Assembly (NCBI GenBank): GCA_024641545.1
Contig: JAHECW010000009.1
Coordinates: forward strand, 1-43,808
Source: Acidobacteriota bacterium
Lineage (GTDB): Bacteria; Acidobacteriota; Thermoanaerobaculia; Thermoanaerobaculales; Sulfomarinibacteraceae
Direction of reading: 5' to 3'
DNA length: 43,808 bases
In this document: piece after piece, positions 35,795-36,081 of the stretch
Layout of the letters: every line of letters starts with the position of its first letter
Position numbering within the stretch: position 1 is the stretch's first letter
The notes under the pieces: generated by a model
The model's input: only the letters and a program-made list of their open reading frames with translations
Told to the model about the DNA's origin: nothing
Database searches by the model: none
Translations under genes and position numbers: made by a program

Positions 35795-35880
35795 CGCCTC
35801 GTCCGACTCAACCAAAGACCGCTCATCGCCCGGCGGGCCGTGGATCGTAGTGTGGACATGCCTCGGGCATCAGAGAGATT

Positions 35881-36040
35881 CCTAAGATGAGCGGTTCTGC
35901 CGGATGAGATGTGCCGAGACCTTGATGCTCTGGTACTTGCGAAAAGCGCAGGCATACCCGTTGGAAGTCCGAGCATTTTCGCAACTATCCAGAGCCCAAG
36001 AGCTTGGTGCAGATCGCCGGTGAGAATCGCCCATCTTAGG
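35881..36040. repeat. 160-bp near-palindromic (MITE-like) element
   Basis: The ends are CCTAAGATG and CATCTTAGG, and the first 23 bp match the inverted last 24 bp at about 20 positions. Inside, GCTCTGG (35927-35933) pairs with CCAGAGC (35989-35995) and TTGCGAAAA (35937-35945) with TTTTCGCAA (35976-35984), leaving a loop of about 30 nt. Weaker symmetry (GAGA/TCTC, CGGG/CCCG) continues to about 35862 and 36060. There is no ORF inside. It lies between divergent genes and could be a non-autonomous mobile element, a structured RNA or a regulatory site. Confidence 0.75.
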
Positions 36041-36081
36041 AAATTATCTCAGAATCCCGCGGACCCTGCCACAATAGGGCC

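Follow-up and report, generated by a model that had tools for sequence, protein, structure and literature searches.

What kind of entity is the 160-nt imperfect palindrome at positions 35881-36040 of the window (the whole stretch of 43,808 nucleotides that was analysed, from an Acidobacteriota genome), and is its capacity to fold an accident of composition or a property that has been kept? A sequence-only reading had considered a MITE, a substrate of a REP-type transposase, a structured RNA and a dual regulatory site for the two adjacent genes, and had held that the palindrome would be due to chance if the genome contained no further copy, relatives no conserved pairing and orthologous regions no empty site. 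Its description of the locus is accurate: the left end at 35881 reads CCTAAGATG and the complement CATCTTAGG runs up to 36040, with about 20 of the first 23-24 positions matching if one 1-base shift is allowed, and the two inner blocks that it had pointed out, GCTCTGG/CCAGAGC and TTGCGAAAA/TTTTCGCAA, are seen inverted at symmetric positions of the element. RNA folding of both strands, a check that had been advised, agrees with the single long hairpin that was expected, inasmuch as the 160 nt of the + strand are predicted to fold at -86.2 kcal/mol (z -9.7), or at -101.9 kcal/mol with flanks (z -10.5, none of 200 shuffles being equal), and the complement strand is weaker at -73.9 kcal/mol (z -6.6). 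The interior holds just short chance ORFs, of at most 50 aa when wholly within the element, in keeping with the earlier statement that no ORF is inside. The element lies between a family-2 glycosyltransferase gene (- strand) and a TPR-domain gene (+ strand); near the window's left edge there is a tRNA gene (55-127, + strand). Rfam returned no family at the gathering threshold and, at a relaxed threshold, two chance-level overlaps that both fall outside the element, and an intrinsic terminator (a GC-rich stem followed by a T run) was not found at the element, whose downstream sequence is AAATTATC. The features of the locus, in window coordinates, are as follows.

35876-35880, no strand: left target-site duplication, AGATT, identical to the right copy at 4 of 5 positions; empty site in genome G001.
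35881-36040, + strand: mobile hairpin element with ends CC...GG, + being the strand with the conserved fold.
35881-35917, + strand: left outer arm, comprising the terminal inverted repeat CCTAAGATGAGCG and the conserved GGATGAGATG; alignment columns 1-37.
35898-35899, + strand: UG of a conserved tandem 5'-UG-3'/3'-GU-5' wobble, partner 36021-36022; from the copy alignment.
35908-35909, + strand: GA of a conserved tandem GA/GA mismatch, partner 36012-36013; 68 of 84 copies.
35912-35913 with 36008-36009, + strand: second tandem 5'-UG-3'/3'-GU-5' wobble; from the copy alignment.
35932-35990, + strand: apical core, common to other mobile hairpins of the phylum; match to covariance model R2.
36004-36040, + strand: right outer arm, pairing with the left outer arm; columns 128-164, 94.4% of cells paired over 84 copies.
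36012-36013, + strand: GA partner of 35908-35909; from the alignment of 84 copies.
36041-36045, no strand: right target-site duplication, AAATT; from flank comparison and the empty site.

The search of the genome and its relatives that the sequence-only reading had recommended did find further copies: DNA searches recovered about 15 in the element's own genome (5.38 Mb, 310 contigs), 69-90% identical and some in the opposite orientation, and DNA similarity across 60 related genomes placed the repeat in 14 of 20 from the same family (Acidobacteriota, class Thermoanaerobaculia) versus 0 of 40 others. These 14 family genomes yielded 104 distinct copies, all of them between genes and none inside a gene predicted by a crude gene caller. 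Among named genomes, a pattern scan returned mainly Acidobacteriota MAGs labelled Thermoanaerobaculales, Ca. Sulfomarinibacter and Holophagae. Carriage by phages or plasmids was rejected, as plasmid and phage records held no matching copy by DNA similarity, and in viral contigs the element pattern was not found and the three matches to the core pattern came without a long hairpin.

The manner in which the copies were dispersed is revealed by their flanks. In 22 of the 104 copies the adjoining 5 bp are perfectly duplicated, where reshuffled partners would lead one to expect 0.86, and the mean identity is 0.61 against 0.35 expected (z 14.3); this signal was first seen in a smaller set of 53 copies, and among flank lengths from 2 to 10 no length other than 5 bp behaves so. 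The insertion target reads C|TNNNA|G, and the duplication of the window copy is AGATT/AAATT. The orthologous region of G001, a genome of the same genus, lacks the element and presents an exact empty site, GGCATCAGAGAAATTATCTCA as against GGCATCAGAGAGATT-160 nt-AAATTATCTCA at the window locus, in the comparison of orthologous regions proposed earlier; a second empty site was found where a G018 copy is missing from its G000 counterpart. The element was inserted as a unit, the 5-bp staggered target became the duplication, and the annotated boundaries 35881-36040 coincide exactly with the transposed unit. Dispersed copies, a 5-bp target duplication and an exact empty site therefore identify a transposed, non-autonomous MITE-type element without coding sequence of its own, which upholds the MITE among the earlier proposals. 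Apart from a partner IS sharing these ends, for which our searches found no candidate, the structural definition of a MITE fits: 160 nt (the limit being about 600 bp) with no transposase gene and only chance ORFs, terminal inverted repeats CCTAAGATGAGCG that are paired in 84 copies, target-site duplication and empty sites, and many copies scattered for the most part between genes. The notion of a chance palindrome in one genome breaks down on all three points named at the outset (other copies, conserved pairing, empty site) and, with a folding z of about -10 and 104 copies with the duplication, its probability is negligible.

The copies vary in size and setting. Four loci carry short forms of 44-77 nt with both ends kept (L103 101-177, L104 101-144, L105 101-153 and L106 101-174), in which the hairpin interior is lost as palindrome deletions would give, and enlarged relatives of 203-299 nt in G008, G013 and G018 (L096-L102, L110 and L177-L183) bear extra branched hairpins, GGAACCGACGCC... 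modules in at most two copies, in the upper stem. Copies also occur in pairs on the same strand, about 600 bp apart in L068/L047 and about 200 bp apart in L072 (3393-3758). In two species of one genus, an orthologous insertion occupies the same site in opposite orientations (L011 1496-1645 in G000, L053 1501-1659 in G001), which is either an inversion by arm recombination or template switching, or an independent insertion. Two reading frames of the element ends CCTAAGATGAG contain a stop codon, TAA and TGA (e.g. window 35883-35885 and 35888-35890), and many copies adjoin the 3' ends of genes whose stop codon is seemingly supplied by the element end.

We have aligned 84 full-length copies, oriented by sequence and with a mean pairwise identity of 0.76. 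In the 60-pair hairpin 92.3% of cells are paired, compared with 85.1% after shuffling and about 43% or less in controls with slid partners; 41 of the 60 pairs changed on both sides in some copy, against 25 in shuffles, bearing in mind that the copies are related and these events not independent; and the covariation score is 0.296 versus 0.169 for shuffles and at most 0.087 for slid partners, again from counts on 84 related copies that are not independent. G.T (G.U) cells outnumber A.C cells by 703 to 96, a bias present in 84 of 84 copies, and therefore it would be one strand that folds; the hairpin strand is likewise the stabler one in 84 of 84 copies. At seven pairs a wobble is the prevailing form, the two tandem 5'-UG-3'/3'-GU-5' motifs at alignment columns 18-19/145-146 and 32-33/132-133 among them; a tandem GA/GA mismatch is kept at columns 28-29/136-137 in 68 of 84 copies and a bulged A at 99%, and at columns 60-61/104-105 the combination GC/GC (46 copies) is swapped as a unit for GA/GA (24 copies). 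Strand-specific cytosine deamination was rejected as the source of G.U because the wobble excess arises from A>G and C>T alike: at pairs that are usually Watson-Crick, A>G contributes 136 wobbles and C>T 113, against 56 + 38 A.C cells. The compensating G-U differences that the sequence-only reading had noticed in the arms hold over the 84 copies, and its suggestion of a structured RNA is borne out as regards conserved strand-specific pairing, the alignment displaying the covarying, strand-specific structure looked for in a functional RNA. Judged from these compensating changes, G.U wobbles and tandem G.A mismatches, the pairing of one particular strand is conserved.

The fold extends beyond the family. 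A covariance model built on the full-length element (R1) also matches other families of the class Thermoanaerobaculia. Their hairpins are long, at about 120-220 nt, and have arms and ends of their own; the part in common is the apical core, in which a loop caps the 8-bp stem GGC....GUY and a G-N-A / G-A internal loop lies at its base. With a second covariance model of the 59-nt apical core alone (R2) and a threshold of E 1e-4 or better, matches were obtained in 61 of 396 Acidobacteriota genomes, often with many near-identical copies per genome. One of these genomes, G150, holds eleven nearly identical hairpins of about 177-181 nt with ends GGACCC...GGGTCC (L285-L289, L309-L314), whose flanks resemble a 3-bp T-N-A duplication (7 of 11 identical, from few copies); this is a recently active family and well suited to finding the transposase. 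Hairpins ending TAGCCCGG or TAACCCGG have apparent TA duplications at CTAG, on the strength of few copies, and the CCTAAA-ended form with the 5-bp duplication recurs outside the family, in G398 (L298, L299), an Acidobacteriota genome of low G+C, where one copy has TCAAA on either side. By the model matches, the hairpin tip is common to mobile hairpins with other arms and ends across the phylum, and the lengths of their duplications apparently differ, being 3 and 2 bp. The core strand is the stabler of the two in 52 of 54 hairpins from these other families and in 25 of 25 genomes, with orientation set by a strand-favouring model; the model's picking of strands could explain part of this bias, though the arms differ from family to family.

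A transposase that might move the element was sought among several types. An IS1380-type mover, suggested by the CC ends and the 5-bp duplication, was rejected, as such genes are confined to G003, G005 and G013, where they do not have matching ends, and in the own genome they are absent at the threshold used. An IS4/IS5-type DDE_Tnp_1 mover fared no better, with none in the own genome and none elsewhere with the ends or a fitting paired 5-bp duplication. No CCTAAG end pairs at IS distance appear among the matches listed, and in G150 the close end matches all lie within hairpins, bar one single non-hairpin end. Searches by end pattern, transposase family and covariance model, conducted on fragmented MAGs, found no partner IS with the same ends. 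Y1 transposases occur in many of these genomes; a RAYT/TIRYT link is nevertheless not supported, for no hairpin lies near any of the 20 Y1-transposase loci examined, and the hairpin-rich genomes G008, G010, G018, G019, G183 and G239 have no Y1 transposase match. A cargo gene travelling with the element was discarded as well, there being no recurrent neighbour (the largest cluster comprises 4 of about 130 loci examined).

We place considerable confidence in the view that this is a non-autonomous MITE-type element, mobilised in trans, with a probably transcribed strand that would be under selection to fold. A transposase encoded elsewhere would cut at the CC/GG ends, and it would be of the DDE type because the duplication is short and fixed; the + strand would be transcribed into an RNA that folds as a long hairpin; and the apical core would serve as a protein-binding site on the folded strand, on which the spread of the element or its tolerance by the host may depend, an assignment favoured because the core persists when ends and arms change. 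The conserved folded form is, on this model, probably RNA rather than single-stranded DNA. Several points weigh against the account: the searches found no autonomous element or transposase with matching ends, strands in the other families were assigned by a model that itself favours one of them (their arms differ, however), the copies are related, so that covariation counts are not independent, template switching can also make compensating changes, and an equal strand bias could come from single-stranded DNA.

If template switching within a quasi-palindrome copied arm onto arm, pairing would be a by-product of replication and the element a plain palindromic MITE; the process is documented as creating and maintaining hairpins (PMC8794818) and as able to invert the spacer (PMC8604942), and the opposite orientations of L011 and L053 at the same site are as spacer inversion predicts. 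Such a process would, however, erase mismatches, yet the bulged A, the tandem GA and the seven wobble pairs persist; it should not prefer G.U over A.C, in conflict with the counts given above, and it leaves unexplained why hairpins whose arms are unrelated have one and the same apical core. We hold it to be quite improbable. The folded strand might instead be a single-stranded DNA intermediate for a structure-specific transposase (e.g. HUH/Y1 or REP-type), which would account for the favouring of one strand in both G.U bias and stability, but the element has a fixed target duplication, and we know of no Y1/HUH transposition that makes one. The Y1-type transposases of many of these genomes would suit this reading, as would the RAYT-like genes with long inverted repeats of Acidobacteria (PMC3733652); the six hairpin-rich genomes without a Y1 match and the 20 Y1 loci without a hairpin speak against it, and the abundant conserved wobble pairs suit RNA better than DNA, which makes a DNA intermediate decidedly unlikely.

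The element might also be a domesticated host regulator, kept for the benefit of neighbouring genes through processing, stability or attenuation in transcripts. Similar roles are known for Correia and ERIC (PMC10969869), and of the copies that lie between co-directional genes, 35 have the hairpin strand antisense and 13 have it sense (p 0.002), a count from crude gene calls. Insertions are patchy, however, and relatives have empty sites: G001 belongs to the same genus and lacks the element, which is therefore not needed there. Nor does any neighbour gene family recur or any terminator-like site appear. The antisense preference, from those same crude calls, would be in keeping with stable hairpins being selected against in operon mRNA. 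As a general explanation host regulation is unlikely; for single copies, a regulatory role is possible on this analysis, and the genes beside the window copy speak neither for nor against the dual regulatory site proposed earlier.

A transposed element with a conserved fold has partial counterparts in known systems. ERIC/IRU (a 127-bp enterobacterial intergenic repeat) and RU-2 are likewise dispersed intergenic imperfect palindromes of similar size without a gene of their own, mobile and forming a hairpin in RNA, a likeness drawn by description and with the RNA of our element presumed. The duplication of ERIC is reported as TA; the present element differs from ERIC in its phylum, its 5-bp duplication and a core common to elements with different ends. 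We know of no sequence relation to the Correia elements (NEMIS) of Neisseria, from which the element is set apart, again by description, in that it pairs over the whole 160 nt and its inner loops are conserved across families. ERIC/IRU and RU-2 are regarded as MITEs (PMC10969869, PMC2759123), as are the Correia elements, whose inverted repeats form transcript hairpins that RNase III cuts and which are reported to invert (PMC10969869). REP/REPIN sequences with their RAYTs, and the TIRtrons of TIRYT transposases described in Acidobacteria (PMC3733652), resemble the element as palindromic dispersed bacterial DNA. REPs are, in contrast, hairpins of 20-40 bp with a GTAG tag and a link to Y1 transposases, and the earlier suggestion of a REP-type (RAYT) substrate is not supported for a 160-nt hairpin that ends in CCTAAG, duplicates its target and has no Y1 gene linked to it. 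IS-derived MITEs of families with 5-bp duplications (e.g. IS1380, Tn3) share the short inverted ends and the duplication length, but no IS was found with this element's ends. With no Rfam family and nothing in the open-licence papers searched, the element seems not to have been described before.

Bacterial MITEs are usually viewed as deletion remnants of insertion sequences and are defined by their ends. Here, ends and arms vary between families, and it is the hairpin core and its non-Watson-Crick loops, on one strand only, that are kept. As a tentative proposal, which we would not put at even odds, the phylum may harbour a superfamily of mobile hairpins whose conserved unit is a folded RNA, its core CG-NA-GGC...GUY-GA-G borne by a long stem that contains tandem G.A and tandem UG/GU motifs, and whose members have varied ends and duplications (5, 3 and 2 bp); the core would be bound by a protein that drives or permits mobility, and selection would act on an RNA inside a DNA transposon. 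If the conserved strand is indeed RNA, a DNA mobile element would depend on RNA structure for its spread or its tolerance, a dependence that is directly testable. In Acidobacteriota, where the element occurs commonly, it could serve as a marker of recent insertions and have effects on operons.
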